Below are positions 22,498-61,820 of a DNA stretch of 64,000 nucleotides, in pieces; positions within the stretch are counted from its first letter, which is position 1, and each line of letters opens with the position of its first letter. This stretch comes from Sphingomonas sp. 67-36 (GTDB lineage: Bacteria; Pseudomonadota; Alphaproteobacteria; Sphingomonadales; Sphingomonadaceae), in the NCBI GenBank assembly GCA_001897375.1, contig MKSU01000002.1, positions 93,040 to 157,039 on the forward strand, written 5' to 3'. Below the pieces are notes generated by a model that was not told the origin of the DNA, searched no databases, and worked only from the letters and a program-made list of their open reading frames with translations. A program made the translations under genes and the position numbers.

Positions 22498-22513
22498 TTG
22501 CGCAGATGTGCAG
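22498..22513. promoter_or_regulatory. operator-like site A (TTGCAY-N4-RTGCAA family)
   Basis: TTGCGCAGATGTGCAG, flanked by AAAT and AAATG like the other sites. It lies between the exported protein (start 22405, minus) and the oxidoreductase gene (start 22581, plus). One of the more diverged copies. Confidence 0.5.
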
Positions 22514-22580
22514 AAATGATCTGGCGAAATCGGTGCGGTCGGGATAACCGGGGCCAATGGCAACCCCGGAGAGGCCCCCC

Positions 22581-23594
22581 ATGAGATCGCGCGAAATCCA
22601 TCTTGTCCGCCGGCCTGCCGGCGCCCCGGTCGCCGGGGATTTCGCCACGGTGGAACGCGAGGTCGCGGCGCCGGGCGCGGGCGAGGTGCTGGTCCGCAAC
22701 CGCTGGATGGCCGTCGATCCCGCGATGCGCGGGCGGATGGACGACGCCAAGAGTTATGTCCCGCCGTTCGCACTCGACGCGCCGATGGAGGGGCCGGCGA
22801 TCGGCGAGGTGGTCGCCTCGAACGATCCCGGCTTCACGCCGGGCGACATGGTGTTCTCGCGCCTCGGCTGGCGCGAGGCGTTCGTCGCGCCCGGCGAGGC
22901 GTTGCGGAAGCGCGATTGCACGGTGCTGCCGGCGCAGGCCTATCTCGGCTTCGCGGGGATGACCGGTCTCACCGCCTATGCCGGCCTGTTCCGCGTCGGT
23001 CAGCTCAAGCCGGGCGACGTGGTGTTCGTCTCCGCCGCGTCGGGCGGCGTGGGGTCGCTGGTGTGCCAGATGGCGAAGCTCAAGGGGCACAAGGTGATCG
23101 GCTCGGCCGGCGGCGCGGCCAAGGCGGCGTTCCTGCGCGACCGGCTGAAGCTCGACGGCGTGATCGACTATAAGGTCGAGCCGAACCTCACCAAGGCATT
23201 GGCGCGCGAGACGAAGGCGATCGGCGCGGAAGGGATCGACCTTTATTTCGACAATGTCGGCGGCGACCATCTCCACGCGGCGATCGCGGTGGCGAAGCCG
23301 TTCGCGCGGATGGCGATCTGCGGCATGATCTCGCAGTATAACGCCGCCGGGCAGGTGACGCCGCCGCGCAACCTGACGCTCATCATGGGCAAGCGGCTGC
23401 GGCTTGAAGGGTTCATCGCGCTCGATCATTTCGATATCGAGCAGCATTTCCTCGCCGATGTTTCGGCATGGCATCGCGCCGGGCTGCTCGATCCGGTGGA
23501 GACGGTGTTCGACGGGATCGACCAGGCGCTTGCCGCCTTCAACGCGCTATTCGACGGCAGCAGCATGGGTCGCACCCTGGTCAGGCTCGGATAG
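22581..23594 (+). CDS. NADP-dependent MDR-family oxidoreductase (CurA/quinone-oxidoreductase-like)
   Basis: 337 aa. Zinc-less medium-chain dehydrogenase/reductase with the nucleotide-binding turn SAASGGVGSLVCQMAKLKG and the GMISQYN segment typical of NADP-dependent prostaglandin/leukotriene-reductase-like and 2-alkenal reductase proteins. A GGAGAGG ribosome-binding site 6 bp before the ATG at 22581 decides the start over an ATG 24 bp upstream. Reduces activated C=C bonds in known relatives; substrate here unknown. An operator-like site A lies upstream. Confidence 0.88.
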   Translation: MRSREIHLVRRPAGAPVAGDFATVEREVAAPGAGEVLVRNRWMAVDPAMRGRMDDAKSYVPPFALDAPMEGPAIGEVVASNDPGFTPGDMVFSRLGWREAFVAPGEALRKRDCTVLPAQAYLGFAGMTGLTAYAGLFRVGQLKPGDVVFVSAASGGVGSLVCQMAKLKGHKVIGSAGGAAKAAFLRDRLKLDGVIDYKVEPNLTKALARETKAIGAEGIDLYFDNVGGDHLHAAIAVAKPFARMAICGMISQYNAAGQVTPPRNLTLIMGKRLRLEGFIALDHFDIEQHFLADVSAWHRAGLLDPVETVFDGIDQALAAFNALFDGSSMGRTLVRLG

Positions 23595-23654
23595 CTGTTC
23601 ATTGCGCGTCCAGCGATTGTGCGCCAGAGGCGCGAAAAGCGTCAGGAGGATGGG

Positions 23655-24032
23655 ATGAGGATCGTCGTTGCTTCGCTGGGAACCCTTGGCCTGCTGGCCC
23701 TCGCGGGCGTGGCGAGCGCCGGGCCGCCCGCCGGGGACGTGGCGCACGGCCGCGCGGTGTTCGCGCGCTGCGCCGCCTGCCATGACGCGACGACCGGCGC
23801 CAATCGCGTCGGCCCCTCGCTGAAGGGCGTGGTCGGCCGCCGCGCCGCCAGCGCGCCCGGCTTCGCTTATTCCGCCGGGCTCAAGGGAAAGAACGTGACG
23901 TGGACGCCGGCGGCGCTGGACGCCTTCATCACATCGCCGACGCGCTATGCTCCCGGCACGCGCATGGCGATCGCGGTCACCGATCCGAAGGATCGCGCCG
24001 ATCTGATCGCCTATCTCACGACATTGCGCTGA
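23655..24032 (+). CDS. small periplasmic c-type cytochrome
   Basis: 125 aa. Signal peptide MRIVVASLGTLGLLALAGVASA, then one heme-binding CAACH and a distal Met in PGTRMAIAVTD, the class I cytochrome c layout (cytochrome c2/c552-like, RVGPSLKGVVGR). An AGGAGG site 5 bp before the ATG fixes the start. It could accept electrons from the PQQ-dehydrogenases of the window, which have their own heme domains; that link is inference. Confidence 0.92.
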   Translation: MRIVVASLGTLGLLALAGVASAGPPAGDVAHGRAVFARCAACHDATTGANRVGPSLKGVVGRRAASAPGFAYSAGLKGKNVTWTPAALDAFITSPTRYAPGTRMAIAVTDPKDRADLIAYLTTLR

Positions 24033-24122
24033 AAATTGCCCTCGCGTGCAATAATAGCGCTTGAGTCGCGTGTCGTTGTCCCGTAGCAACCGCGCGAAAT
24101 ATCAGCAGGGGGTGGAAACCGC

Positions 24123-25361
24123 GTGACGGACGGACGGCCCGGACGGGCGCTTGAAGGGATCAAGGTTCTCGATCTGTCGCGCGTGCTCGCCGGGCCCTGG
24201 TCTACGCAGATTCTCGCCGATCTCGGCGCTGACGTGCTCAAGGTCGAGCTGCCCGGCAAGGGCGACGACACGCGCGGCTGGGGGCCGCCGTTCCTGACGC
24301 TCCCGGACGGCAGCGACGATCCGCAGGAAAGCGCCTATTACCTGTGCTGCAACCGCAACAAGCGCTCGGCCGCGATCGATCTCGCCAACCCGGAGGGCGC
24401 GGCGCTGATCCGCCGGCTCGCCGCCGAGGCCGATATCCTCGTCGAGAATTTCAAGGTCGGCGGGCTGGTCAAATACGGGCTGGACTATGCCAGCATCCGC
24501 GCGATCAACCCGCGCATCGTCTATTGCTCGATCACCGGCTTCGGCCAGACCGGCCCCTATGCCGACCGGCCGGGCTATGACTTCGTCGCGCAGGGGATGG
24601 GCGCGTTCATGTCGATCACCGGCGAGGAGCATGGCGGGCCGCTGCGCGCCGGGGTCGCCATGGCCGATCTTTCCACCGGCATGTACGCGACCGTCTCGAT
24701 CCTCGCCGCGCTGCGCCATGCCGAGCGCACCGGGGAGGGGCAGCAGATCGACGTGTCGCTGCTCGACACGCAGATCGCGATGCTCGCCAACCAGGGATCG
24801 AACTGGCTGGTCGGCGGGGTCAATCCCGGCCGGCTCGGCAATCGCCACCCGACCGTCGTGCCGTACAAGACGTTCGAGGTGGCGGACGGCACGATCATCA
24901 TCGCGATCGGCAACGACGGGCAGTTCCGCGCCTTCTGCCACGAAATGGGCCGGCCGGAGCTGGCCGCCGATCCGCGCTTCGTCACCGGCCGCCAGCGGCT
25001 GATCAACCGCGAGGAGATCGAGGCGATCGTGCAGGAGATCGTGCGCGACATGCCGGGTGGCCCGCTGATCGAGCGGCTGGTCGCGGCCAACGTGCCTGCC
25101 GGGCCGGTCAATACGATCAAGGATATCTACGCCGATCCGTTCATCGTGGCGCGCGGCGTGGTGCATCGCTTCACCCGCGAGGACGGGGTGGAAATCCCCA
25201 CCGTCGCCTTCCCCGGCAAATTCTCCGCGACGCCGACCGACTATCGCCATCGCCCGCCGCAGGTCGGCGAGCATAGCCGCGAGCTGCTGGGCGACTGGCT
25301 GGGCGTGTCGGACGCCGAGTTCGCCGGGCTGGAGGAAAAGGGCGCCGTCAGGCAGCGCTGA
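24123..25361 (+). CDS. class III CoA-transferase (CaiB/BaiF)
   Basis: 412 aa, GTG start. Typical opening GIKVLDLSRVLAGPWSTQILADLGADVLKVE, the CoA-binding NRNKRSAAIDL, and the catalytic Asp in MADLSTGMYATVSIL. It moves CoA between carboxylic acids. Single-domain, normal length. It converges on cofC and overlaps its 3' end by 14 bp. It may activate a pathway acid, but nothing ties it to one substrate. Confidence 0.92.
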   Translation: MTDGRPGRALEGIKVLDLSRVLAGPWSTQILADLGADVLKVELPGKGDDTRGWGPPFLTLPDGSDDPQESAYYLCCNRNKRSAAIDLANPEGAALIRRLAAEADILVENFKVGGLVKYGLDYASIRAINPRIVYCSITGFGQTGPYADRPGYDFVAQGMGAFMSITGEEHGGPLRAGVAMADLSTGMYATVSILAALRHAERTGEGQQIDVSLLDTQIAMLANQGSNWLVGGVNPGRLGNRHPTVVPYKTFEVADGTIIIAIGNDGQFRAFCHEMGRPELAADPRFVTGRQRLINREEIEAIVQEIVRDMPGGPLIERLVAANVPAGPVNTIKDIYADPFIVARGVVHRFTREDGVEIPTVAFPGKFSATPTDYRHRPPQVGEHSRELLGDWLGVSDAEFAGLEEKGAVRQR

Positions 25362-25944
25362 GCGACGGCCGCGCGAGCAGCGCGAGGTCGCGCGGCTCGT
25401 CGAGATCGGCCGACAGCCCTTCGCGGCGCATCACCGTGAAGCGCAACCCGCTCGCCATCGCCCGCGCGCGATGGAGGGCGAGGCTGTCCGCTCCGAACGA
25501 ATAGTCGATCAGGCCCGGCCGTCGCAGCAGCAGCGCGTTGGTACCGATCCCGGCGCGGTCGGTCGCGGCGGTGACGTCGGCGGTGTCGAGCATCTCCGCC
25601 AGCGCCGCGAGGTCCGCCGGCGCGAGCAAGGGAAGGTCGGCGCTGAGCGCTAGCAGCGGCAGCGCCGGATCGACCAGCGCGCTTGCCTGCCGCAGCGCGG
25701 CGTTCAGCCCGCTGCCGGTTTCACGGATCGCCCGCGCACCGCCAGCCGCCGCGAGATCGAGCAGCAGCGGGCTGCGGCTGACGACATGGCATTGCACGGG
25801 CGGCACGACCTGCGTCGCGACGCGCAGGACGTGACGGAACATCCGCTCGACCAGCGCCGCGCGCGCCCTCTCGTCCAGCGCGGGGGCGAGACGACTCTTG
25901 CCCTCGCCTGGCGGCCGGACGGGGATGACGATCGAGAAGCTCAC
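25348..25944 (-). CDS. cofC: 2-phospho-L-lactate guanylyltransferase-type enzyme of F420 synthesis
   Basis: 198 aa. The nucleotidyltransferase opening SIVIPVRPPGEGKSRLAPAL and LALSADLPLLAPADL match CofC/FbiD. The enzyme activates 2-phospholactate, phosphoenolpyruvate or 3-phosphoglycerate, depending on the organism, with GTP; which one applies here cannot be told from the sequence. Last gene of the F420 operon; its ATG overlaps the cofD stop (ATGA). Confidence 0.92.
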   Translation of the reverse strand: MSFSIVIPVRPPGEGKSRLAPALDERARAALVERMFRHVLRVATQVVPPVQCHVVSRSPLLLDLAAAGGARAIRETGSGLNAALRQASALVDPALPLLALSADLPLLAPADLAALAEMLDTADVTAATDRAGIGTNALLLRRPGLIDYSFGADSLALHRARAMASGLRFTVMRREGLSADLDEPRDLALLARPSLSAA

Positions 25945-26882
25945 GCCGGCTTCCGCAGCATCGCCGCCAGCGCGAGCGCGACGCGCGCCAGCCGCCGCTG
26001 GCCGATGTCGTCGCGCATCAGCGTGTCGGCCGCGATCAGCCGGATGCCGTCCATCGTGGTTCCCGCGCCGGGGTCGTCATAGTCGCACAATATCGCATCG
26101 ACGATGCCGGCATAAGGCTTCGCCAACGCCGCCGCGCCCGGCGCGATGCCCAATTCGCGCATGATCTTCGCCGCCGGCCCCTTCACCGCCTCCCCGCCGA
26201 TGAACGGAGAGACGGCGATGCACGGCGCGCGCCGTCGCCGCAGCGCGTCGGCGATGCCGGGCACCGCGAGCAACGGGCCGATGCTCAGCACCGGGTTGGA
26301 CGGGCAGATCACGATCGCCTCCAGCGCCGGATCGTCGAGCGCCGCAAGCAGCGCCGGCGCGGGCCGCGCGGTCTCCGCTCCCTCGTAGCGAATGCCGCGG
26401 AACACCGGTTCGCAGCGGCGGCGGACGAAATAATCCTGGAACGGCAGCGCGCCCTCGTCGGTCTCGACGATCGAGCGCACCGGATCGTCGCTCACCGGCA
26501 CGATCGTCTGGACGATGCCGCAGGCGCGGGCGATGTCCTGCGTGATCGCGGTGAGCGTGTCGCCCCGGCGCAGCCGGTCGGTGCGCAGCACATGCTTGGC
26601 GAGGTCGCGGTCGCCCAGCGCGAACCAGTCTGGTCCGCCGAGCTTGCGCAGCGTGTCCATGAACGCCCAGCTCTCTTCCTTCACCCCCCAGCCGCGCTCG
26701 CGATCGTTGAGGCCGGCGAGCGTATAGGTCACCGTGTCGATATCGGGGCAGATGGTGAGGCCGAGATGCTCGAAATCGTCGCCGACATTGACCGCGACGA
26801 GCAACTCGCCCGGCTGGAGCACGCCCGCGAGGCCGTTGGCGAGCCGTGCGCCGCCGACCCCGCCGGCCAGCGCGACGATCAT
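25941..26882 (-). CDS. cofD: 2-phospho-L-lactate transferase CofD (FbiA-like)
   Basis: 313 aa. CofD family throughout: VALAGGVGGARLANGLAGVL, VNVGDDFEHLGLTICPDIDTVTYTL, ICPSNPVLSIGPLLAVPGI and VSPFIGGEAVKGPAAKIM. It joins the activated phospho-acid to the deazaflavin Fo to give F420-0 (or the dehydro or 3PG form). Translationally coupled at both ends, with cofE upstream and cofC downstream, by ATGA overlaps. Confidence 0.95.
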   Translation of the reverse strand: MIVALAGGVGGARLANGLAGVLQPGELLVAVNVGDDFEHLGLTICPDIDTVTYTLAGLNDRERGWGVKEESWAFMDTLRKLGGPDWFALGDRDLAKHVLRTDRLRRGDTLTAITQDIARACGIVQTIVPVSDDPVRSIVETDEGALPFQDYFVRRRCEPVFRGIRYEGAETARPAPALLAALDDPALEAIVICPSNPVLSIGPLLAVPGIADALRRRRAPCIAVSPFIGGEAVKGPAAKIMRELGIAPGAAALAKPYAGIVDAILCDYDDPGAGTTMDGIRLIAADTLMRDDIGQRRLARVALALAAMLRKPA

Positions 26883-27646
26883 TGGAACAGGTCCATCCCG
26901 CGCGGGCGGACGATCGCGCGCGCGGTGCTGCCGTCCGGCGCATAGGAAAGGCCGCGCAGGATCACGACCGGCGTGCCCTCGTCCGCCTGACCCATCGCCA
27001 GCGACGCGGCGGCGGCGGCCTCGTCGGCGAGGCCCAGTTCGCTCGATTCTAGCTTGCGCCCGGTGAGGTCGGGCCGCCCGCGCAGGTCCAGCACCGCCGG
27101 CAGGCCGGCGACGCCGATCGCCGTGCCGGTCGTCCCCATCCGCCACGCGCGGCCGAGGCTGTCGATCACCAGCACCGCGACGGTGCGGCCGGTCGCGTGC
27201 TTGAGCGCGTCACGCAGCCGCGCCGCGCTGGCGTCCGGATCGATCGGCAGCAGCAGCGCCTGCGGGCCGTCGCCGGGCAGCACGTTCGACTGGTCGATCC
27301 CGGCGTTGGCCAGCACCAGCCCGAGCCGGTGCCGCACGATCAGCAGGTTGGGGCGCACCCGCACCACCGCGTCGCTCTCGGAGAGGATCAGCTCGACCAA
27401 CCGCGCGTCCTTGCCGGTGCGCGCCGCCAGTTCCAGCGCGGCGGGCGAGGGGACGACGCTGTCGAGCGCGACCTGCCGCCCTTCCGCCTTGGAAACGATC
27501 TTCTGCGCGAGGACGACGACATCGCCGTCCTCCAGCGCCATGCCGCTCGCTTCCGCCGCTTGCACGACCACCCGGCACAGATCGTCGCCCGGCCGCACCA
27601 CGGGCACGCCGGCCAGCGCCGTCACCGAATAGCCGCGTCCGCTCAC
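26879..27646 (-). CDS. cofE: F420-0:gamma-L-glutamate ligase CofE
   Basis: 255 aa, GTG start that overlaps the npdG stop (GTGA). Family motifs: EDGDVVVLAQKIVSKAEGR near the N-terminus, NAGIDQSNVLPGD, and VIDSLGRAWRMGTTGTAIGVAG. It adds the glutamate tail of F420 using GTP. This is the single-domain archaeal-type CofE, without the C-terminal nitroreductase-like domain of mycobacterial FbiB, so reduction of a dehydro-F420 precursor would need another enzyme. Confidence 0.94.
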   Translation of the reverse strand: MSGRGYSVTALAGVPVVRPGDDLCRVVVQAAEASGMALEDGDVVVLAQKIVSKAEGRQVALDSVVPSPAALELAARTGKDARLVELILSESDAVVRVRPNLLIVRHRLGLVLANAGIDQSNVLPGDGPQALLLPIDPDASAARLRDALKHATGRTVAVLVIDSLGRAWRMGTTGTAIGVAGLPAVLDLRGRPDLTGRKLESSELGLADEAAAAASLAMGQADEGTPVVILRGLSYAPDGSTARAIVRPRGMDLFQ

Positions 27647-28320
27647 GCCGCCTGTGGCACGCCGGTGATGCGGATGCCCGAGCCGGGCACCTTGTAGCGG
27701 CGGTTGAGCGCGATCAGCACGCTGGTCAGCGCCTCCGCCACCACCGAGTTGCACAGCGGCCCGGCATTCCACGCGGTAAGGCCGATCTCCCGCGCCAGCG
27801 CGACCACTTCCTCCGCCGCCGCCGGATCGTCGGCGCAGACCAGCACGTCGCACTCCACGTCCTCGTCCAGCTTGGTCAGGTGGTGCGCGGAGATGTTCTG
27901 GAAGGCGGAGACGACGCGCACGCCTTCGCCGAGCAGCTTCTGCACCGCCTCCACCGCGCTGCCGCCATCGGGAAGCTGCACGCGACTGACCTTCGGCGGG
28001 ACGAGCGGAACGGTGACGTCGATCAGGATCTTGCCCTGAAGCGCGTCGGCGACTTCCGCGACGGTCGAGCGTTGCGCCGCGAACGGCACCGCGAGCACGA
28101 CGATGTCGGCGGCGCGCGCGGCATCGGGATTGGCCATGCCGCGCACGTCCGCGCCGCCGCCCAGCGTGTCGCGCATACCGGCGGCGGCTTCCTCCGCGCG
28201 TTCGGCGGTGCGGCTGCCGACGATCACCGGATGGCCGAGATGCGCCCAGCGCAGCGCCAGCCCGCCACCTTCCTTGCCGGTGCCGCCGAGCACGGCGATG
28301 GTCTTCTTCGTCTCAGGCAT
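27643..28320 (-). CDS. npdG: F420:NADPH oxidoreductase
   Basis: 225 aa. N-terminal Rossmann motif IAVLGGTGKEGGGLALRWAHLG followed by VIVGSRTAERA for NADP(H), then AFQNISAHHLTKLDEDVECDVLVCADD and the C-terminal NRRYKVPGSGIRITG typical of NpdG/Fno. It passes hydride between NADPH and F420, so it would keep the cofactor reduced for F420H2-using enzymes. Its presence inside the biosynthesis operon implies the cofactor is used in the cytosol. Overlaps fbiC by 8 bp. Confidence 0.93.
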   Translation of the reverse strand: MPETKKTIAVLGGTGKEGGGLALRWAHLGHPVIVGSRTAERAEEAAAGMRDTLGGGADVRGMANPDAARAADIVVLAVPFAAQRSTVAEVADALQGKILIDVTVPLVPPKVSRVQLPDGGSAVEAVQKLLGEGVRVVSAFQNISAHHLTKLDEDVECDVLVCADDPAAAEEVVALAREIGLTAWNAGPLCNSVVAEALTSVLIALNRRYKVPGSGIRITGVPQAA

Positions 28321-30691
28321 CTTCGGCCGCCCTCTCTTTGCGTTTCCTGGGTGGGGTGAGCACGACCGGCGTGAGCGGCGGAGCGGCGCGCCCCATCGCC
28401 CGGACCGCCGGCGCGACTTCCCCGTAAAGCGTGGTGCGCTGGCGCGGCGCGCGGCCGATCGAGCGGATCAGCGCCTCCATCTCCTGCGGCGGCAATTCCT
28501 GCCCGTGCGCCGCGCCGGCCGCGCGGGAGATGCTCTCGTCCATCAGCGTGCCGCCGAGATCGTTGGCGCCGCCGTTCAGGCACGCCTTCACGCCGTTCGC
28601 CCCCAGCTTGACCCAGCTCACCTGGATCGAGGTGAGATGCGGGTGCAGCGCCAGCCGCGCCACCGCATGCATCAGCCGCACCTCGCGGAAGGTCGGGCCG
28701 CGACGGCTCTCGCCCCTCAGGCCCATCGGCGCCTCCATCGGCACGAACGGCAGCGGCACGAACTCGGTGAAGCCGCCAGTGCGCCGTTGCAGGTCGCGGA
28801 TCGCGATCAGGTGGCGCGCCCAGTGGCGCGGGCCGTCGACATGGCCGAACATGATCGTCGCGGTGGTGCGCAGCCCGGCGCGGTGCGCCGCCTCGATCGT
28901 CTCCAGCCATTGCGCGGTGTCGAGCTTGTCGGGGCAGATCACCGCGCGTACCTCGTCGTCGAGGATTTCGGCGGCGGTGCCGGGCAGCGAGCCGAGGCCC
29001 GCCGCCTTAAGCCGCGCGAGATAATCGTCGAGCGGCAGGCCCAGCGACCCCGCGCCGTGCCGCACCTCCAGCGGGGAGAAGGCGTGGATGTGGAGATCGG
29101 GCTGCGCCGCCTTCACCGCGCCGAGCAATGCGAGATAGGTCTCGCCGGTATAGGAGGGGTGGATGCCGCCCTGCATGCACACCTCGGTGCCGCCGCGCGC
29201 CACCGCTTCGTCAGCGCGGCGAGCGACTTCGGCGAGATCGAGGTCGTAAGGCGCGCCGCGCAGGCTCTCCGCCCCGCGCCCCTTGGAGAAGGCGCAGAAG
29301 CTGCATTTATAGGCGCAGATATTGGTATAGTTGATATTGCGGTTGACGACGAACGTCACCTCGTCGCCGTTGATCGCGCGGCGCAGCGCGTCGGCGCTGC
29401 GGCAGATATGCTCGACATCCGCGCCACGCGCCGCGAACAGCGCCTCGATCTCATCCGCCGCGATCTCCTGCCCGGCGGTCGCGCGGGCGACGATCCGCTC
29501 GATGCGCGGCGAGACCTTGCCCGTGGCGGGCGCGGGCTGCGGCGGGAGCGGCTGGCCCGGCGACCAGCGATCGGCGCGCGCGAATCCGTGTGCATCGGCC
29601 TGTGCGAGCAATGCACGACGCGGCGCATCCTCCTGCCACGGCGCGGCGAGGAAGGCGGGATAGGCGGGCAGGCGCGCGACCAGCCGGCGGCCGGCGGCCT
29701 CGGTCGCGGCGCGCAACTTGTCCACCGCCGGCCATGGCCGCTCCGGATTGACGTGGTCCGGCGTCACCGGGGAGATGCCGCCCCAGTCGTTGATCCCCGC
29801 TTCCATGAGGCGCGGGAATGCGGCGTCGGCGAGGTTCGGCGGCGCCTGGAGCGAGATGCCGGCGGGCAGGATCAGCCGCGCGGCGGCGATCGACCATAGC
29901 AATTCGTCCAGCGTCGGTTCGTCCGCGTCGGCCATCGGCGTGCGCGGCTTGGCGCGGAAGTTCTGGACGATCACTTCCTGGATATGGCCGTGGCGCGCGT
30001 GGAGGTCGCGGATCGCCAGCAGCGTGTCGATCCGCTCCGCGCGCGTCTCGCCGATGCCGATCAATATGCCGCTGGTGAAGGGGATGTTCAACTCGCCGGC
30101 CAGCGCCGTCGCCGTGAGCCGCGCCGCCGGGATCTTGTCGGGCGAACGGTAATGCGGGCCGCCCTTCGCGCCGAGCCGGTCGGCGATCGTTTCGAGCATC
30201 AGCCCCTGCGATCCGGACACCAACTTGAGCCGCGCCATCTCCGCGCGCGTCATCACCCCGGCGTTGACGTGCGGGATGAGGCCGGTCTCGGCGAGGACGA
30301 GGCGGCACATCGCCTCCAGATAGTCGATCGTGGTGGCATGGCCCATTGCCGCCAGCTCGCGCCGCGCGACGGCGAAGCGCAGTTCCGGCTTGTCGCCGAG
30401 CGTGAACAGCGCCTCGGTGCAGCCCGCCGCCGCGCCCGCGCGCGCCACCGCCAGCACTTCCTCCGGCGTCATATAGGCGCGCTGCCCGGCGCGAGGGCGC
30501 GAGAAGGTGCAATAATGGCAAAGGTCGCGGCAAAGCTGGGTGAGCGGGATGAACACCTTGGGCGACCAGCTCTGCACGACCCCGAACGCCGCGTCGCGAA
30601 TCGCGGCGGCGCGCGCCAGCAGCGCCTCGGCCGGCAGGGTCGAAAGGGCGTGCGCTTCGTCTGCCGTCATCACCGAGAAAGCCGCTCCCAT
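28313..30691 (-). CDS. fbiC: FO synthase, CofG–CofH fusion (FbiC-type)
   Basis: 792 aa. Two radical-SAM domains in one chain: the N-terminal CofG half with CRDLCHYC and the C-terminal CofH half with CAYKCSFC, both CX3CX2C. Together they make 7,8-didemethyl-8-hydroxy-5-deazariboflavin (Fo) from tyrosine and the ribityl pyrimidine. The fusion is usual in actinobacteria; many archaea keep two genes. The start at 30691 (MGAAFSVMTADEAH) or 30670 is preferred because the next one upstream (30802) lies beyond the operator palindrome. First gene of the F420 operon, divergent from the phosphotransferase operon. Confidence 0.94.
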   Translation of the reverse strand: MGAAFSVMTADEAHALSTLPAEALLARAAAIRDAAFGVVQSWSPKVFIPLTQLCRDLCHYCTFSRPRAGQRAYMTPEEVLAVARAGAAAGCTEALFTLGDKPELRFAVARRELAAMGHATTIDYLEAMCRLVLAETGLIPHVNAGVMTRAEMARLKLVSGSQGLMLETIADRLGAKGGPHYRSPDKIPAARLTATALAGELNIPFTSGILIGIGETRAERIDTLLAIRDLHARHGHIQEVIVQNFRAKPRTPMADADEPTLDELLWSIAAARLILPAGISLQAPPNLADAAFPRLMEAGINDWGGISPVTPDHVNPERPWPAVDKLRAATEAAGRRLVARLPAYPAFLAAPWQEDAPRRALLAQADAHGFARADRWSPGQPLPPQPAPATGKVSPRIERIVARATAGQEIAADEIEALFAARGADVEHICRSADALRRAINGDEVTFVVNRNINYTNICAYKCSFCAFSKGRGAESLRGAPYDLDLAEVARRADEAVARGGTEVCMQGGIHPSYTGETYLALLGAVKAAQPDLHIHAFSPLEVRHGAGSLGLPLDDYLARLKAAGLGSLPGTAAEILDDEVRAVICPDKLDTAQWLETIEAAHRAGLRTTATIMFGHVDGPRHWARHLIAIRDLQRRTGGFTEFVPLPFVPMEAPMGLRGESRRGPTFREVRLMHAVARLALHPHLTSIQVSWVKLGANGVKACLNGGANDLGGTLMDESISRAAGAAHGQELPPQEMEALIRSIGRAPRQRTTLYGEVAPAVRAMGRAAPPLTPVVLTPPRKRKERAAEDA

Positions 30692-30771
30692 CAGATTGCC
30701 GAACGGGGTTTCTACTGCCCCGCCATGCCCTTGTCCGCCACATTCTCCGACATTGCGTGGCGAGCTAAAAA

Positions 30772-30787
30772 TTGCATTGCAATGCAG
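30772..30787. promoter_or_regulatory. operator-like site B shared by F420 and catabolic operons
   Basis: TTGCATTGCAATGCAG; bases 30773–30786 form a perfect 14-bp palindrome. It sits in the 138-bp divergent region between fbiC (minus) and the phosphotransferase gene (plus), so one bound dimer could control both directions. The least diverged copy of the family. Confidence 0.7.
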
Positions 30788-30829
30788 AAACGTCAAGGGC
30801 ATTATCCAAGCGATTTAATCAGGTGGGAC

Positions 30830-32634: not shown

Positions 32635-32653
32635 GATCACGAGAGGACAAGCG

Positions 32654-35412: not shown

Positions 35413-35421
35413 GGAGAGCGG

Positions 35422-51921: not shown

Positions 51922-51957
51922 ATTTTTTACCGCTGTCTAAAATTAGTTGAATCTTTT

Positions 51958-51973
51958 TTCACGCAGGTGCAGA
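51958..51973 (+). promoter_or_regulatory. operator-like site G before the CoA-transferase operon
   Basis: TTTCACGCAGGTGCAG, inverted copy of CTGCACCTGCGTGAAA; with flanks it reads like site J on the opposite strand (TTTTTCAC… TGCA… ATT). 52 bp upstream of the CoA-transferase start. Confidence 0.6.
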
Positions 51974-52024
51974 TTTCGATTCGACGGGCCGATCAACTGC
52001 GGCGCCGCGCTTTGGGAGAGAGTT

Positions 52025-54403: not shown

Positions 54404-54439
54404 GGCGTCCGCGCCCAGGCCATAGCGAAAGCCACCGCC

Positions 54440-55441
54440 ATGCAGCTCAATCTGCGCTACGACATGAACAGCCCGAAGTTCGGGGCGCCGCATCCCGCGC
54501 TCTATCGCACCGCGATCGAGCAGGCGGCATGGGCCGACAAGCTCGGCTTCACGCAGGTGTTCCTCGCCGAGCATCACGGCGCGGAAGACGGCTATTGCCC
54601 GTCCTCGATGGTGCAGGCCGCGTCGATCTTCGCGGTGACGGAGCGGATCAACGTCCACCTTTCCGCATTGGTCGTCACCATGCACGATCCGCTGCGGCTG
54701 GCCGAGGACCTCGCGGTGCTCGACAATATCTCGAACGGGCGCATCTGGCTCACCGCCGGCATGGGCTATCGCCCGCACGAGTTCGAGATGTTCGGCAAGG
54801 ACATCACCAAGCGCCTCGGGCTGATGAACAAGGCGCTCGACACGCTGAAGAAGGCGTGGGGCGGCGAGCCGTTCGAGTATGACGGGCGCATCGTGCGCGT
54901 CACCCCGCCGGGGGTGCAGCCGGGCGGCCCGAAGATCTACATGGGCGGATCGACCGAGAAATCGGCGCTGCGCGCGGCGAAGGGCGGCTATCAATATTTC
55001 CCCGGCCATCCCGGCCTGTGGGACATCTATGCCGAGGAGCGCGCGAAGCTGGGCTTTCCGCCGCCCGAGCCGCTGGTCAAGTCGATCGCCAGCTTCCTCT
55101 ACATCACCGACGATCCCGACCGCGACTGGCCGCGCATCGCGCCGCATGTCGCCTACGCCACCAACACCTATGCGCAATGGGCGACCGAGCGCGGCACCGG
55201 CGACACGCTCTACAAGGCGGCCGAGACGGTCGAGGCGCTGAAGGCGATGCCCAACATCAAGGTGCTGACCCCGGACCAGTGCTTCGACTGGCTCAAGACC
55301 CAGCCGGCCAACGCCGGGATCAACTTCCACGCTTTGCTGGGCGGGCTGGACCCGGATCTGTCGTGGGCGAGCCTGCGCCTGTTCGAGAAGGCGGTGCTGC
55401 CGCGCCTGATCGACGCGAAGATGGTGGACCTCAACCAATGA
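54440..55441 (+). CDS. luciferase-like monooxygenase-family oxidoreductase, candidate F420-dependent enzyme
   Basis: 333 aa, TIM-barrel LLM family. LNLRYDMNSPKFGAPHPALYRTAIEQAAWADKLGFTQVFLAEHHGAEDGYCPSSMVQAAS and ISNGRIWLTAGMGYRPHEFEMFG are the flavin-site strands; KIYMGGSTEKSALRAAKGGYQYFP is the phosphate-binding part. Family members use either FMNH2 or F420H2. The regulated F420 operon in the same window favours F420, but no residue I can see settles it. Stop overlaps the esterase start (ATGA). Confidence 0.9.
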   Translation: MQLNLRYDMNSPKFGAPHPALYRTAIEQAAWADKLGFTQVFLAEHHGAEDGYCPSSMVQAASIFAVTERINVHLSALVVTMHDPLRLAEDLAVLDNISNGRIWLTAGMGYRPHEFEMFGKDITKRLGLMNKALDTLKKAWGGEPFEYDGRIVRVTPPGVQPGGPKIYMGGSTEKSALRAAKGGYQYFPGHPGLWDIYAEERAKLGFPPPEPLVKSIASFLYITDDPDRDWPRIAPHVAYATNTYAQWATERGTGDTLYKAAETVEALKAMPNIKVLTPDQCFDWLKTQPANAGINFHALLGGLDPDLSWASLRLFEKAVLPRLIDAKMVDLNQ

Positions 55442-56949
55442 GGCGCGCGCGGCGGGCGATCGGGCTGCTCGCCGCGGCGGCGCTGCTCGCCGGGAACGCC
55501 GGGCCGGTCGTCGCCACCGACACCGGGCGGGTGCGCGGCGAGGCGCTGGAGCAGGGCGCGGCGTGGCGCGGCATCCCTTATGCGCTGCCGCCGGTGGGCG
55601 CGCTGCGCTGGCGCGAGGCGCGGCCGGTCCGTCCGTGGAAGGGCATACGCGACGCCACGCGCTTCGGCTTCGATTGCCCGCAGAAGCCGGAAGGTGACCG
55701 GCCGACCCACGCGCAGGGCGAGGATTGCCTGACGCTCAGCATCGTCACGCCGGATCGCGCGGCGAAGCGGCTGCCGGTGCTGTTCTCGATCCACGGCGGC
55801 GCTTATGCCTTCGGCTCGGGGCGCTACATGGCGGAGGCCGGGCTGTCGCCGCTGGTGCGCGGCGGGGTGATCCTCGTCTCGCCCAACTATCGCGTCGGCC
55901 GCTTCGGCTTCTTCGCGCATCCCGCGCTGGTCGCGGAGGCGGGGCACGGGACTGGTAATTTCTGGCTCTCCGATCAGCTCCGCGCGCTGGAATGGACGCG
56001 GCGCAACATCGCGCGGTTTGGCGGCGATCCCGGCAATATCACCATCCTCGGCTGCTCTGCCGGCGGATCGAGCGTCAACGCGCTGATGGCCTCGCCGGCC
56101 GCGCGCGGATTGTTCGCACGGGCCAGCGCGCATTCCGGCGGGGGCTTCTTCAACGCCACCCGCCCGCTCGACCGCGCGGAGGCGGAAGGCGTGGCCTTCG
56201 CCGCGCGGGCGGGCGTCACCGACAAGGGCTCGGCGGGGCTTGCGGCGCTGCGCCGCCTGAGCATCGCCGAGGTGCTCGCCGCCGATCCGGGGCCGCCGGC
56301 GTTCGGCGCGATCGTCGACGGACGGCTGCTGACCGATCGGATCTCGGCGATCTTCGCGCGCGGCGAGCAGGCGCCGGTGCCGTTCATCGCCGGATCGACC
56401 AGCAACGAGGCGAGCGTGTTCGGGCTGATGGGCTTCGACGCGCCGACGCTCAAGCGCCTGTTCGGGATCGACCTCGATTCGTGGCGACCGATCTACGAAG
56501 CCGACGGTCCGTTGAGCGACGCCGAACTGATCCGCCGCGTGCAGACCGATTTCATCTTCACTTCGGCCGCGCTCGGCATGGCGGGGCTCGCCGCGCGGCG
56601 CGCGCCGGCGTGGAGCTATCATTTCGATTTCGTGCCGCCGGCCGAGCGCGCGAGCGCGCCTGGCGCGCCGCATTGCGCCGACATGCCCTATCTGTTCGGC
56701 GTCGCGCCGGAGGACGATCCGCGCACCGCCGCGATGGCGCGGCGATGGCGCGGCCTGTGGCTGAACTTCCTGCGCTCCGGCGACCCCAATGGCGCGGGGC
56801 CGGTGATCTGGCCGCGCACCGTGCCCGGCGCGCTCGAGACATTGCTGGTGCGCGACCGGATGACCGTGACGCAGGGCATCAGGCCGGCGGCGATCGCCGC
56901 GTGGCATAAGCGGTGGCGGCGCGAGACGGGGCTTTCGATCCAGCCCTAA
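55438..56949 (+). CDS. type-B carboxylesterase, exported
   Basis: 503 aa. Signal peptide MRRARRAIGLLAAAALLAGNAGPVVA, then the alpha/beta-hydrolase COesterase fold: GIPYALPPVGALRW, EDCLTLSIVTP, the oxyanion-hole IHGGAYAFGSG, and the nucleophile S207 in GCSAGG (most relatives have GESAGG). A catalytic His is likely in GAPHCADMPYLFG. It should cleave an ester bond in the periplasm. Translationally coupled to the LLM gene; the TonB receptor gene follows. Confidence 0.92.
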   Translation: MRRARRAIGLLAAAALLAGNAGPVVATDTGRVRGEALEQGAAWRGIPYALPPVGALRWREARPVRPWKGIRDATRFGFDCPQKPEGDRPTHAQGEDCLTLSIVTPDRAAKRLPVLFSIHGGAYAFGSGRYMAEAGLSPLVRGGVILVSPNYRVGRFGFFAHPALVAEAGHGTGNFWLSDQLRALEWTRRNIARFGGDPGNITILGCSAGGSSVNALMASPAARGLFARASAHSGGGFFNATRPLDRAEAEGVAFAARAGVTDKGSAGLAALRRLSIAEVLAADPGPPAFGAIVDGRLLTDRISAIFARGEQAPVPFIAGSTSNEASVFGLMGFDAPTLKRLFGIDLDSWRPIYEADGPLSDAELIRRVQTDFIFTSAALGMAGLAARRAPAWSYHFDFVPPAERASAPGAPHCADMPYLFGVAPEDDPRTAAMARRWRGLWLNFLRSGDPNGAGPVIWPRTVPGALETLLVRDRMTVTQGIRPAAIAAWHKRWRRETGLSIQP

Positions 56950-56951
56950 TA

Positions 56952-56967
56952 TTGCATTGACACGCAA
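56952..56967 (+). promoter_or_regulatory. operator-like site H before the TonB receptor
   Basis: TTGCATTGACACGCAA, 11 of 12 arm positions fit TTGCAY-N4-RTGCAA. It begins 3 bp after the esterase stop. Confidence 0.65.
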
Positions 56968-56987
56968 GATTCATCGCCGTACGAATT

Positions 56988-57003
56988 TTGCATTCAAGTC
57001 CAC
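56988..57003 (+). promoter_or_regulatory. operator-like site I before the TonB receptor
   Basis: TTGCATTCAAGTCCAC with AATT in front; left half intact, right half diverged. 36 bp downstream of site H (start to start). Confidence 0.5.
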
Positions 57004-57004
57004 T

Positions 57005-57020
57005 TTTGACGCCGGTCAAA
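57005..57020 (+). promoter_or_regulatory. separate palindrome before the TonB receptor
   Basis: Perfect TTTGAC-GCCG-GTCAAA, 36 bp before the TonB receptor start and adjacent to site I. It has a different core from the other sites, so a second regulator is possible. Confidence 0.5.
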
Positions 57021-57055: not shown

Positions 57056-60031
57056 ATGAGAGTTCGTGCCATTGCCGCGCTCATGGCGACCAGCGCGCTG
57101 ACGTTCGCCGTGCCCGCTTTGGCAGAGACGCCGCCTGCCAGCCCGGCCGCTCCGGCCGCTGCGCAGGACCAGGCGGTTCAGGGCCAGCCCGCGCCGGCGC
57201 AGACCACGCCCGACGTCGTCGTCACCGGCACGCGCATCGTGCGCGACGGCTATACCGCGCCGACCCCGGTGACTGTGGCCACCACCGACGATCTGCTCAA
57301 GTCGACGCCGTCGGGCGTGCCCGACGCGCTCAACAAGCTGCCGCAGTTCGCCAACTCGCTCAGCCCGAGCAAGGCCGCGTCGAACTTCTCGAACCTGCCG
57401 ATCCACGGCAACATCCTCAACCTGCGCGGCCTCGGCACCACCGGCGCCAATCCGAAGGGGCCGCTACGCACGCTGATCCTGTTCGATGGCCTGCGCGTCT
57501 CGCCGACCGAATATGTCGGCACGATCGACACCAACGTGCTGCCGGAACTGCTGATGCAGCGCGTCGACGTCGTCACCGGCGGCGCTTCGGCGGCATGGGG
57601 GTCGGACGCTGTCGCGGGCGTCGTCAACTTCGTGCTCGACAAGAATTTCAACGGGTTGAGCGGCGTGGCGCAGGCAGGCGTGGCGCAGCGCGGCTATGCC
57701 GGCAGCCAGCGCATCGGCATCGCCGGCGGCACCGGCTTCGCCGGCGGCCGCGGCCATATCGAGTTCAGCGCCGAATATAACAACAACGATGGGATGAAAC
57801 GCGCCGACCGCGATTTCTCGAACAAGGGCTATAATTACGTCGGCTCGGTCGTCGGCGGCGGCACGCCGGGCACGGCGACCAATCCCTATACGATCGGCAC
57901 CGACGTGCGCATCTCCGCGCTGACCAGCAACGCGCGCATCACCAGCGCCAGCTCGCTTGCCAATCCGTTGATCGGACGGGTGGTCAACCCCGACGGCACC
58001 ACCCGGCCGTTCAATACCGGAACGGCGGTCGGCACCGCCGGCTTCCAGTCGGGCGGCGACGGATATGGCATCACGCAGCAGAACGCCGCGATCATCCCCG
58101 GCAAGACCTACAACACGTTCGGCCGCCTGTCCTATGACGTGTCCGATGGCATCAACGTCTATGTCCAGGGCCTGTTCAGCCGCAGCGACTATGTCTATCC
58201 GACGCAGACCAACGCGCTCGTGCCGCCCAGCGAGGCGGTGAACCTCTACAGCGGCAACCCCTATCTCTCGCCGGCGATGCAGGCCACCCTGGCCGGGCCG
58301 AACGATTATCTCACCGTCGGTTCCTATGACGCCGGCCAGCCGCAGCCGCTGGCGCGAGAGCGCACCGATTACTGGATGGCCACCGCCGGGCTCGACGGCC
58401 ATTTCGGCGATTTCAAATGGTCGCTGAACTATACCCACGGCCAGTCGGTGCACCACATGGCCACCTCTGGCCTGTACGATAACAAGAAGCTGTTCGCGGC
58501 GACCGATGTGGTGATGGTGAACGGTACGCCGACCTGCCGCGTGCTGACCGATCCGACCGTGGCGGCGCAATATGCCGGCTGCCAGCCGCTCAACCTGCTC
58601 GCGGGCAATCCGGCGACGGCGACCCCGGCCGGCTATGCCTATGCCACCGGGACGTCGCGCTACGATGCGACGATCAAGCAGGATTCGGTCACCGCTAGCA
58701 TCTCCGGCAGCCTGTTCAACCTGCCGGCCGGGCCGGTCGACCTCGCCGCCGGCGTCGAGTGGCGCAACCAGTCGCTCGATCTCACCAGCAATGCCGATCC
58801 GGCCGATCTGGACACCGCGGCCAAGCGCAGCGCCTATTTCGCGGGGCTGCGCGGCGTGCCGGCCGGCGCATTGTTCTACTGGTTGACCAACGTCGGCCAG
58901 GGCCACGGCAGCTATAACGTGAAGGAAGGTTTCGCCGAACTGGCGGTGCCGATCCTGAAGGATGCGCCGCTGTTCCAGGAACTGAGCCTTAACGGCGCGG
59001 TGCGCGTGACCGATTATTCCACCTCGGGCACCGTCACCACCTGGAAGGTCGGCGGCACCTGGAAGCCGGTGCAGGACTTCCTGCTGCGCGCCACCTATTC
59101 GCGTGACATCCGCGCGCCCAACCTGTTCGAGCTGTACAGCGGCGCGCAGTCGGCGATCGGCATCATCAACGACAAGATCGTTGGCTCGATCGGTTCGGGC
59201 ATCAACCAGAACGTTTCGTCCGTCACTTCCGGCAACCTCAATCTGAAGCCGGAGAAGGCCAAGACGCTGACGATCGGCACGGTGCTGACCCCGAGCTTCA
59301 TGCCCGGCTTCAGCATGTCGATCGACTATTATTCGATCAGGGTCGATTCGCTGATCGACCAGCTTTCGGCGCAGCAGATCGTCGACAATTGCACCAACAG
59401 CGGCGGCACCGGGCCGGAGTGCGCGCTCATCACGCGCAGCTCGCCCACGGCCTTCCCAACGCTGATCCGCATCGCGCCGGCGAACATCGCCTTCCTGAAG
59501 ACCGCCGGCATCGATTTCGACGCCACCTATCGCACCCGTCTGGGCGATGGCGGGCTCGCGTTACGGCTCTACGCCAACTACCTCGACAAGTTCGATACCC
59601 AGCAATATGCCGGCGCGCCGACGCTACATTACGCGGGGGTCAACGTGGTCGGCTCCAACCCGGCGGCCTATCCGCGCTGGCGCGGCTCGCTGACCGCCGA
59701 CTACAGCACCGAGCGCTTCGGCATCACGATATCGGAGCAGATGATCGGATCGATGCGGCTCGACATTCCGGGCGCGCTGCCGAACGGCGCCCGCGTCAGC
59801 TTCGTCGACGATCACGTCGGCGCGGTGTTCTACACCGATCTCACGCTGCGGGCGAAGGTCGATGTCGGGGCCGGCAAGCAGTTCGAGCCGTTCCTGACGA
59901 TCAACAACCTGTTCGACAAGGACCCGCCGCTGATCCCCGGCACCGTGCCGGGCGTCAATTTGCCGACCAATATCGCGGTGTACGATTTCGTCGGCCGCGC
60001 CTTCACGGCGGGCGTGCGCTTCAAGTTCTGA
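57056..60031 (+). CDS. TonB-dependent outer-membrane receptor
   Basis: 991 aa; strong GGGGAGG 9 bp before the ATG. A signal peptide (MRVRAIAALMATSALTFAVPALA), a Pro/Ala/Gln-rich linker, a TonB-box-like PDVVVTGTRIVRDGY, the plug domain (NILNLRGLGTTGANPKGPLRTLILFDGLRVSP, VDVVTGGASAAWGSDAVAGVVNFVLDK) and a 22-strand-type barrel ending FTAGVRFKF. It imports a large substrate across the outer membrane. Three operator-like palindromes precede it; a hairpin terminator follows. Confidence 0.96.
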   Translation: MRVRAIAALMATSALTFAVPALAETPPASPAAPAAAQDQAVQGQPAPAQTTPDVVVTGTRIVRDGYTAPTPVTVATTDDLLKSTPSGVPDALNKLPQFANSLSPSKAASNFSNLPIHGNILNLRGLGTTGANPKGPLRTLILFDGLRVSPTEYVGTIDTNVLPELLMQRVDVVTGGASAAWGSDAVAGVVNFVLDKNFNGLSGVAQAGVAQRGYAGSQRIGIAGGTGFAGGRGHIEFSAEYNNNDGMKRADRDFSNKGYNYVGSVVGGGTPGTATNPYTIGTDVRISALTSNARITSASSLANPLIGRVVNPDGTTRPFNTGTAVGTAGFQSGGDGYGITQQNAAIIPGKTYNTFGRLSYDVSDGINVYVQGLFSRSDYVYPTQTNALVPPSEAVNLYSGNPYLSPAMQATLAGPNDYLTVGSYDAGQPQPLARERTDYWMATAGLDGHFGDFKWSLNYTHGQSVHHMATSGLYDNKKLFAATDVVMVNGTPTCRVLTDPTVAAQYAGCQPLNLLAGNPATATPAGYAYATGTSRYDATIKQDSVTASISGSLFNLPAGPVDLAAGVEWRNQSLDLTSNADPADLDTAAKRSAYFAGLRGVPAGALFYWLTNVGQGHGSYNVKEGFAELAVPILKDAPLFQELSLNGAVRVTDYSTSGTVTTWKVGGTWKPVQDFLLRATYSRDIRAPNLFELYSGAQSAIGIINDKIVGSIGSGINQNVSSVTSGNLNLKPEKAKTLTIGTVLTPSFMPGFSMSIDYYSIRVDSLIDQLSAQQIVDNCTNSGGTGPECALITRSSPTAFPTLIRIAPANIAFLKTAGIDFDATYRTRLGDGGLALRLYANYLDKFDTQQYAGAPTLHYAGVNVVGSNPAAYPRWRGSLTADYSTERFGITISEQMIGSMRLDIPGALPNGARVSFVDDHVGAVFYTDLTLRAKVDVGAGKQFEPFLTINNLFDKDPPLIPGTVPGVNLPTNIAVYDFVGRAFTAGVRFKF

Positions 60032-60418: not shown

Positions 60419-60444
60419 CGTTACGTTCCTCTCGCTTTGCCGCG

Positions 60445-61668
60445 TCAGTCCCACGCCAGCACCAGATCCTCGACCCCGAACACGAAGCCGCCGTACACGG
60501 TCGGCAGATGCCCTTCCTTGAAGCGGAAGGTGGGAATCCGCCCCAGCCATTCCTCCAGCCCGATCACCACCTCGCGCCGCGCGAGATGCGAGCCGAGGCA
60601 GCGGTGCGGGCCATAGGCGAAGGCGACGTGGCGGTTGTCCTCGCGCGCGAAGTCGATCTTGTCCGGGTTGGGGAATTCGGCCGGATCGCGGTTCGCGGTC
60701 ATCGACGGGCAGGCGATGAGGTCGCCCGCCTTGATGAGCACGCCCGCCACCTCCACGTCGCGCGTCGCGCGGCGGATCGGCGTGACGGTGGGGAAGGCGC
60801 GCAGCATCTCCTCGGCGGCGAGCAGGATGCGGCCCGGCTCGGTGCGGAGCTGCTCCTGCGCGGCCTGATGCTGCGCGAGGTAGAGCAGGTCGAAGCCGAT
60901 CGCCGCCGCCACCGTGTCCAGTCCGGCGATGAACAGCAGGACGCTCATCGACTTCACTTCATGCTCGGTCATCCGGCGGCCGTCGACCTCCGCCTGCGTG
61001 ACGAAGGTCATGAAGTCGTCGGCCGGCTCGCGGCGGCGCAGCGCCTGCAGGTCGTCGAGATAGGCGACGACGATCTTCGCCGCCTCGGTGCGCTGCGCCG
61101 GCGTGCCGTGCAGCAGGTCGTTGGCCCAGCCGACGAATTCGTGCAGCCGCTCATGGCCGATGCCGAGGAACTGGAGGAAGATGCTGACCGCGAAGGGGAA
61201 GGCGAACTCGCTCATCGCCTCGCAGCTCGTGCCCTTCGCCTTGATCCCCTCGATCAGGTCGATCGCGCGCTGGCGGACGATCGGCTCGAGGTTCACCACG
61301 CGGCGCGGGGAGAGCAAAGGATTGAGCAGCGAGCGCCACTTGCCGTGCTCCGGCGGATCGATCTCGAGCGGGATCAGCGGCCAGGTCTCGCCCAGCGCGG
61401 ACGAGAAGATGTTGCGATTGCTGGAGAAGGTCACGCCGTCCTGCAACACGCGGCGCTGGTCCTCGGCGCGGACCACGATCCACGCGCCCTCGCCGTTGCG
61501 GGTCATGTTGAGCGAATAGAAGACCGGCGGCCCGTCCAGCAGCCGGGCGATCGCGGTATGCGGATCGCCGAGCGGTTGCGGCAGCATCGACGGGTCGTCC
61601 ATCAGGTTGAAGCCGCCGACCAGCTCGGGCGGCACATGGCTTGGACGAACGGCGGCGGTCGCTTGCAT
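60445..61668 (-). CDS. cytochrome P450, class I
   Basis: 407 aa. I-helix LLFIAGLDTVAAAIGFDLLYL (with the acid-Thr pair DT), ExxR in EEMLRAFPT, and the heme loop FAYGPHRCLGSHLA with ligand C357. A soluble bacterial P450 hydroxylase. It opens the P450–ferredoxin operon and is divergent from the DUF35/thiolase genes, with sites J and K between. CYP family not assigned. Possible role: hydroxylation of an alkyl or ring carbon before CoA-linked breakdown. Confidence 0.95.
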   Translation of the reverse strand: MQATAAVRPSHVPPELVGGFNLMDDPSMLPQPLGDPHTAIARLLDGPPVFYSLNMTRNGEGAWIVVRAEDQRRVLQDGVTFSSNRNIFSSALGETWPLIPLEIDPPEHGKWRSLLNPLLSPRRVVNLEPIVRQRAIDLIEGIKAKGTSCEAMSEFAFPFAVSIFLQFLGIGHERLHEFVGWANDLLHGTPAQRTEAAKIVVAYLDDLQALRRREPADDFMTFVTQAEVDGRRMTEHEVKSMSVLLFIAGLDTVAAAIGFDLLYLAQHQAAQEQLRTEPGRILLAAEEMLRAFPTVTPIRRATRDVEVAGVLIKAGDLIACPSMTANRDPAEFPNPDKIDFAREDNRHVAFAYGPHRCLGSHLARREVVIGLEEWLGRIPTFRFKEGHLPTVYGGFVFGVEDLVLAWD

Positions 61669-61692
61669 GGATTGGGCCTCATCCTATCAATT

Positions 61693-61708
61693 TTGCATTT
61701 GAGTGAAA
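61693..61708 (-). promoter_or_regulatory. operator-like site J before the P450 operon
   Basis: TTGCATTTGAGTGAAA with AATT in front and AAT after. 25 bp upstream of the P450 start. Confidence 0.6.
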
Positions 61709-61804
61709 AATACGGACTCGCGCCGGACCCGTCAACGGCGTTCGTCAAATTTCGGCGAAGCGCTTGCAACGGGCGGCGAATGGGGGCACACAAATGCGTG
61801 AAAA

Positions 61805-61820
61805 TTGCACTATAGTGCTA
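61805..61820 (+). promoter_or_regulatory. operator-like site K before the DUF35/thiolase genes
   Basis: TTGCACTATAGTGCTA; 28 bp upstream of the DUF35 start. Central part GCACTATAGTGC is a perfect 12-bp palindrome. Confidence 0.7.

Follow-up and report, generated by a model that had tools for sequence, protein, structure and literature searches.

A conserved palindrome before nearly every gene group of a Sphingomonas catabolic island, F420 genes included, points to one TetR-type master switch

Introduction

In a 2021 review, the reason why Proteobacteria synthesise the cofactor F420 is given as an unanswered question (PMC8498797). We examined a 64,000-nucleotide stretch of Sphingomonas sp. 67-36 (contig MKSU01000002.1, positions 93,040 to 157,039; hereafter the window, G000:C2:93040-157039 in our labels, where G, C and L number genomes, contigs and loci). 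Within this window of a 4.0-Mb genome, a presumed operon for F420 biosynthesis lies in a 42-kb catabolic island (about 22.5-64.8 kb in window coordinates). What does F420 have to do with the catabolic genes around it? A first-pass annotation of the letters had proposed that a shared 16-bp palindrome, TTGCAY-N4-RTGCAA, marks an island-wide regulon of catabolic and F420 genes, and had named two TetR-type proteins, TetR-1 and TetR-3, as its natural binders. We found the palindrome upstream of almost all gene groups of the island, the F420 genes included, which points to one master switch of the TetR type. No paper on the regulon, the cluster or the motif appeared among the best-ranked results of our literature search, whose scope excluded most subscription papers and all preprints.

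Proposed operator sites in the island

Genes were called by codon-position composition and named with Pfam and NCBIfam; operon limits, and the tally of 16 transcription units for the island, are a reading of gene spacing. The palindrome itself proved to be real but longer than 16 bp: the site spans about 24 bp, approximately AAWTTTGCACNNNNGTGCAAAWTT, with A/T arms flanking the core. When a matrix built from 128 sites of other genomes was run over 124 kb of the strain's own DNA, 13 island sites were top-ranked (scores 15.9-33.6, next best match 14.6), so that an earlier count closer to eight was too severe. All 13 are intergenic, as had been claimed, their centres lie 35-147 bp upstream of start codons, and 14 of the 16 units are served. 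They comprise eleven of the twelve sites listed previously, ten at the base given and one (G2) starting a base earlier, at 51957. The twelfth, G1 at 51906, scored poorly, at 13.7 on the own-site matrix and 9.6 on the foreign-site one, and is replaced by a better palindrome of the same gap at 51925. The sites do precede the units named for them, in a list that was incomplete, as site 24036 had been overlooked.

Six units have sites of their own. Operator A (22494..22517, score 23.5) precedes the alcohol dehydrogenase (ADH) gene (start 22581), and operator 24036 (24032..24055, score 26.6, one mismatch to the 16-mer) lies between cytochrome c and a CoA-transferase III gene (start 24183). Operator D (45537..45560, score 15.9, the lowest of the set) stands before TetR-1 (44749..45498, minus strand), where it would make autoregulation possible. 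Operators H (56948..56971, score 24.2) and I (56984..57007, score 25.2) precede the TonB-dependent receptor (57083..60031, plus strand), and operator J (61689..61712, score 30.5) the cytochrome P450 gene (60445..61635, minus strand). Operator K (61801..61824, score 33.1) precedes a presumed plus-strand operon for a DUF35 protein (ChsH2-type OB), a thiolase-like protein, a SnoaL protein and a short-chain dehydrogenase/reductase (SDR), which occupies 61848..64000 and whose last gene ends at 64782, past the window and before RlmN.

The remaining sites lie in divergent gaps shared by two units. Operator B (30768..30791, score 26.1, no mismatch to the 22-mer that includes the A/T arms) separates two presumed operons. 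On the minus strand is that for F420 biosynthesis (25348..30673; CofC, CofD, F420 ligase, NADP:F420 oxidoreductase and FbiC, from Pfam and gene calls), which thus stands under the palindrome here. On the plus strand (30830..37491, from gene calls and NCBIfam) are an APH-type kinase, so named from weak NCBIfam matches below cut-off, an SDR, an acyl-CoA dehydrogenase (ACAD), an AMP-ligase and pyrroloquinoline quinone (PQQ)-dehydrogenase 1. Operator C (38226..38249, score 33.6) lies between SnoaL (minus strand) and the presumed operon of PQQ-dehydrogenase 2, enoyl-CoA hydratase, flavin reductase, major facilitator superfamily (MFS) transporter and aldehyde dehydrogenase (38290..44582, plus strand); a site is present in the corresponding gap of G133 and of L092-L094. 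Operators E (47960..47983) and F (48005..48028, score 21.9) share the gap between ACAD3-ACAD2 and the second enoyl-CoA hydratase (ECH2). Site E, at 47964, has a single good half and is not among the 16-mer matches with up to three mismatches; its A/T arms raise its foreign-matrix score to 23.6. Operators 51925 (51921..51944, score 21.3 versus 9.6 at 51906) and G2 (51953..51976, score 19.8) separate TetR-3 (51186..51866, minus strand) from the presumed operon of a double CoA-transferase III, a luciferase-like monooxygenase (LLM) oxidoreductase and a carboxylesterase (52025..56949, plus strand). As the first-pass annotation had noted, only the gap between TetR-2 (48987..49643, minus strand, TetR family) and MFS2 is without a site, and nothing above 9 was found there with the foreign-site matrix.

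Chance expectation and conservation in other genomes

The window by itself would not prove the palindrome. The loose 16-mer (up to three mismatches) matched 32 times in the window, against a mean of 41.2 in shuffled sequence, and 94 of 100 shuffles reached 32; since the shuffles held more such matches than the window, this pattern is uninformative by itself. With at most one mismatch, 12 places were found in the 4.0-Mb genome, seven of them in the window, which makes up 1.6% of it (expected 0.19; binomial p 2e-10, a value obtained after the fact because the pattern was defined on sites of the same window). For the 22-mer, the share inside the window was 7/8, 9/15 and 12/78 at up to one, two and three mismatches, respectively, and the reversed pattern matched 28 genome places at up to three mismatches versus 78. 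A blind search for dyads in the island gaps placed TTGCAC-N4 first, in 6 of 16 gaps, a count also reached by one of 30 resamplings. Equal numbers of hits per kb elsewhere or inside genes had been named earlier as grounds for giving up the idea; instead, the hits concentrate in the island and between genes.

The proof comes from other genomes. When the matrix of six own sites was applied to 40 loci selected for a protein similar to TetR-1 (43-80% identical in 38 of them, 35% and 30% in the other two), 120 matches were obtained in 38 loci, while 40 column-permuted matrices gave 11.8 on average and 73 at most. Gene calls were sound in 36 of the loci (those of L104, L116, L117 and L120 were poor); there, 108 of 109 matches were intergenic, intergenic DNA being 10.9% of the bases, and 104 lay no more than 400 bp upstream of the start of a gene. 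The genes behind these sites encode enoyl-CoA hydratase, PQQ-dehydrogenase, TetR-1, double CoA-transferase, ACAD, esterase, SnoaL, kinase, P450, MFS and TonB proteins; a further 13 gene starts have no assigned counterpart in the window. Gene order is reshuffled among the related islands while the kinds of target gene recur. Furthermore, a matrix-free enumeration of six-base dyads, with spacers of 0-12, over a non-redundant set of 213 foreign intergenic segments (L128 and L129 were left out along with the four loci of poor gene calls) is independent of the own-site matrix; it ranked TTGCAC-N4-GTGCAA first, in 17 segments versus a maximum of 9 in 20 resamplings. Unrelated TetR loci tried as controls (L131-L170) were unsuitable, with 75 matches in 18 of 40 loci against a permuted mean of 62.5.

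In addition, a calibrated sequence-only model, R1, was made from 48 foreign sites. On the strain's own genome it returned five places only at E<=10, namely sites C (its best match), K and 24036 and one each on contigs C1 and C9. At E<=2, it matched in 14 of 17 TetR-1-clade genomes and in one of 15 genomes without a TetR-1-type match (G031, E 1.76). Where R1 places at E<=5 were mapped to genes, they fell inside the island stretch in G084 (3/3) and G133 (5/5); in G156 this held for two of three, the other lying before a PQQ-dehydrogenase operon of the same kind. Only strict matches separate genomes with and without TetR-1. Several genomes thus have one motif upstream of similar genes and, alongside it, its proposed regulator: this is a conserved, operator-defined candidate regulon of catabolic and F420 genes, in kind a TetR regulon, and the palindrome observation is confirmed in a stronger form than had first been claimed.

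TetR-1 relatives accompanied by the same palindrome were also seen beyond the sphingomonads, in Luteimonas saliphila (L097), Niveispirillum (L114, L119), metagenome-assembled genomes of Emcibacter (L116 and L117, A/T-rich loci with a raised chance background) and Terricaulis (L123). One of these is, by name, a gammaproteobacterium, so that the regulon seems to have passed between orders and classes.

The candidate regulator

TetR-1 is the best candidate for the protein that reads the palindrome, favoured over TetR-3. Its match to TetR_N (PF00440) reached 54.1 bits against a cut-off of 24, which places it in the TetR family, and its orthologues occur in motif-bearing islands. The motif is tied to the neighbourhood of TetR-1, because 38 of the 40 loci selected for similarity to TetR-1 carry it. 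No TetR protein other than the TetR-1 orthologue was recognised in the G084 and G156 islands, where the remaining regulator-sized genes were named by similarity or, if unnamed, are enzymes by Pfam. The recognition helix of TetR-1, VAKRTLYNAFQ, is nearly invariant in its clade (VAKRT[L/I]YNAFQ) and tracks the motif: among loci with flanks of about 1.5 kb, a match was present in 11 of 17 from the TetR-1 clade versus one of 11 with other helices (L104, L123, L198 and L199, with unread or intermediate helices, were set aside).

A sister TetR group (L188-L197 and L200; G339, G225, G118, G140 and others), with helices such as VAQRT and VAPKT, has the palindrome nearby in one of 11 loci (L191, G140) and may read a different operator. 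In L175 (the TetR-1 of G320) and L099 (Sphingobium faniae) a stop interrupts the matched stretch of the TetR-1 relative, which may be broken there.

The alternative that survives best, although we think it unlikely, is that TetR-3, or TetR-1 and TetR-3 jointly, reads the palindrome, two paralogues serving one operator set. The two are paralogues, as proposed earlier (about 42% identical), TetR-3 is divergent from the CoA-transferase operon with two sites in between, and TetR-3 orthologues stand beside TetR-1 in three relatives (L092, L122 and L124), where their helix, VAKQTLYYAFG, is partly like that of TetR-1. However, no TetR-3 orthologue was seen in the six other mapped loci (G084 and G156 among them), yet all six carry sites, and a site is also present in the CoA-transferase gap of loci in which this gap was assigned no TetR-3 orthologue. 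The strain's own TetR-3 helix, VSRQTFYYAFG, also differs from that of TetR-1 at positions which, from TetR structures, we take to touch DNA; TetR-3 may read a variant of the palindrome. Of the two binders named at the outset, TetR-1 is favoured.

It is considerably less probable that TetR-1 acts as an activator, or that a regulator outside the island reads the palindrome. A position 35-147 bp upstream of start codons would suit an activator as well as a repressor, but most TetR proteins repress, and an unlinked regulator would not predict that the motif and the TetR-1 clade co-occur across genomes.

The link with F420

FbiC is encoded in 16 of 17 TetR-1 genomes versus 41 of 380 others. The DNA before FbiC was surveyed in 30 loci from 30 of the 57 FbiC-bearing genomes. 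A site scoring above 17 within about 420 bp upstream was present for 5 of the 12 listed copies from TetR-1 genomes (G000, G362, G320, G212 and G206) and for one of 18 copies from genomes without TetR-1 (G114, a borderline 17.2). A site also precedes a further FbiC copy of G084, outside the listed 12, and in G143 a short TetR-2-like frame leading into fbiC. The predicted operator control of F420 genes therefore recurs in several relatives without being universal.

The island LLM (54440-55441) was found in 9 of 397 genomes of the family, all nine of which have both TetR-1 and FbiC. Its best NCBIfam match, TIGR03619, gave 94.5 bits against a curated cut-off of 166.9, which leaves it outside the F420 LLM family as defined there. 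Because FbiC co-occurs in all nine genomes, the island LLM probably uses F420.

Sites elsewhere in the genome

The regulon covers the island, as proposed, but is not confined to it, and very good sites also precede a TonB receptor on C1 and an ACAD on C9. Outside the window, C1:55699 is the sole genome copy that departs from the 22-mer at no more than one position, and is in tandem with C1:55737. The pair lies before a TonB receptor that shares 68% identity with that of the island, in a smaller second catabolic cluster (L080, G000:C1:45700-65699) with paralogues of the island's aldehyde dehydrogenase, SDR (61%), ACAD (70%) and TonB receptor. C9:160029 scored 30.4 with the foreign matrix and precedes an ACAD of 540 residues, 39-40% identical to an ACAD of four related islands. 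On a simple reading, the C1 and C9 sites would be reached by the regulator acting in trans.

Another locus (L086, G000:C15:16000-30000) holds an ACAD3-ACAD2-like pair (55% and 49%) next to an MFS gene; the palindrome in the gap consists of the core without A/T arms, and this site, C15:23231, is only a possible member of the regulon. Among the other genome places whose surroundings were read, C5:156851 precedes the flagellin gene, and C8:72922 a TonB receptor, where the foreign-matrix score was 9.2 or less. C16:289469 and C4:24805 fall within genes, C20:54311 at the terminus of a small open reading frame (ORF) and C13:134702 behind a gene, and C29:23733 and C32:229821 are intergenic, with neighbours of unread function. 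All of these were treated as chance or unproven.

Discussion

We propose, with a probability of about 0.82, that TetR-1 is one dedicated TetR-family regulator and that the palindrome is its operator. A TetR-1 dimer would bind the sites before nearly all island units and a few genes elsewhere, and would most likely repress these targets and its own gene alike until released by a pathway intermediate, perhaps an acyl-CoA by analogy with KstR and MftR. The regulon would then combine uptake by the TonB receptor, cleavage of esters, oxidation by P450 and PQQ-alcohol enzymes, activation with CoA and steps resembling beta-oxidation with the synthesis and reduction of F420, which would probably serve the island LLM oxidoreductase.

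Several observations weigh against this proposal. Inside the window alone, the dyad does not exceed chance, and operator D, before TetR-1 itself, barely exceeds the best background matches. A site precedes FbiC in fewer than half of the listed TetR-1-genome copies, and three genomes with TetR-1 (G189, G266 and G237) had no R1 match at E<=2. R1 places were mapped to genes in three genomes (G084, G133 and G156), the larger later batch being counted at genome level only. As foreign sites were first gathered with the own six-site matrix, and the 48 of R1 were hand-picked from 101 thinned ones, the foreign-matrix and R1 tests are not wholly independent. At up to two mismatches the 22-mer fails to separate genomes, with 26, 13 and 14 places in G035, G118 and G187, which have other helices, against 10-24 in seven TetR-1 genomes. 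Lastly, the site before the ACAD3/ACAD2 paralogues, C15:23231, scores below 9 with the foreign matrix once A/T arms are required, and own stretches of 189 kb hold one further match, at 15.3 (L090), with no known link.

It is nevertheless very improbable that the palindromes represent a dispersed repeat or a feature common to promoters in the A/T-rich gaps of a GC-rich genome: A/T arms lift scores in any such gap, as in the control loci, and genomes with other helices hold as many two-mismatch 22-mers, but target genes recur although core spacers vary and gene order is shuffled, permuted matrices with the same arms give far fewer matches in relatives on average, and genomes that lack TetR-1 seldom hold strict matches, with no equal density seen there.

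The gene set, with esterase, P450, PQQ-alcohol and aldehyde dehydrogenases, CoA-transferases, kinase with ACAD, and ChsH2-type DUF35 with thiolase, suggests that the substrate is an ester or alcohol of branched or alicyclic structure, perhaps terpenoid or sterol-like; no paper that names it turned up. To extend the proposal of TetR-1 as the regulator, F420 may be an on-demand cofactor, an idea to which we give even odds. One TetR repressor would silence both the pathway and F420 biosynthesis and reduction until the substrate arrives, as the LLM step would need F420H2, and the regulon would have spread as reshuffling genes that carry their operators, with newcomers or paralogues such as the C1 TonB receptor and the C9 ACAD joining in trans.

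KstR is the TetR repressor of cholesterol catabolism and governs a large catabolic regulon. Judged from sequence, it is the named protein closest to the DNA-binding half of TetR-1, whose best curated match is NF033703 (E 5.7e-12) and whose best solved-structure match is 5aqc (E 9.5e-7). The match is, however, limited to that half and reaches 45.6 versus 280 bits, so that TetR-1 falls outside the KstR equivalog; the island has other enzymes, and the KstR operator presumably differs in sequence from the palindrome.

By analogy, the nearest functional parallel would be MftR, described as a regulator of mycofactocin biosynthesis induced by long-chain acyl-CoA (PMC8728441). It is likewise a redox-cofactor regulator, of TetR type by its NCBIfam name (TIGR03968); however, TetR-1 scores 27.9 versus 224.9 bits, outside that equivalog, and the cofactor there is mycofactocin, here F420 together with an entire catabolic island. 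PheR is a repressor of phenanthrene catabolism in Sphingobium (PMC13273656), which also acts on a sphingomonad catabolic operon and uptake but belongs to the IclR family, with core motif GCAACG, and is unrelated to TetR-1. The ACAD10/ACAD11 route for 4-hydroxyacyl-CoA combines a kinase and an acyl-CoA dehydrogenase (PMC11342911, PMC12440821); the island may resemble it, with kinase and ACAD in one operon but as separate genes with the SDR between them.

If, in this genome as in several relatives, one operator serves both F420 biosynthesis and defined genes for catabolism, uptake and the LLM, then F420 synthesis in Proteobacteria would be tied to a specific, probably inducible pathway, a concrete and testable answer for this group. 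The finding also yields a list of target genes, a 24-bp operator with which the regulon can be located elsewhere and a handle on the inducing compound.

Origin and further features of the island

The right end of the island adjoins RlmN; the left boundary is less sure. The island looks like an acquired block, because a TetR-1-type protein (E<=1e-30) was found in none of 10 genomes of the same genus and because RlmN stands without island genes alongside in 11 of 12 congeners, the 11 being those whose short loci were read. At the left edge, a RES-domain protein (PF08808; 21357-22064, plus strand) adjoins threonine synthase and a methyltransferase. Behind the P450 gene, an ORF of 65 residues (60221-60418, minus strand), whose relative in G156 (51%) is likewise beside a P450 gene, possibly encodes the ferredoxin of the P450. 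The island of G156 (L067/L068) additionally has a glutathione-S-transferase-like gene and a gene for an HpcH/HpaI-type lyase (G156:C163:79748-80392 and 82032-82859), neither of which was seen in the window.

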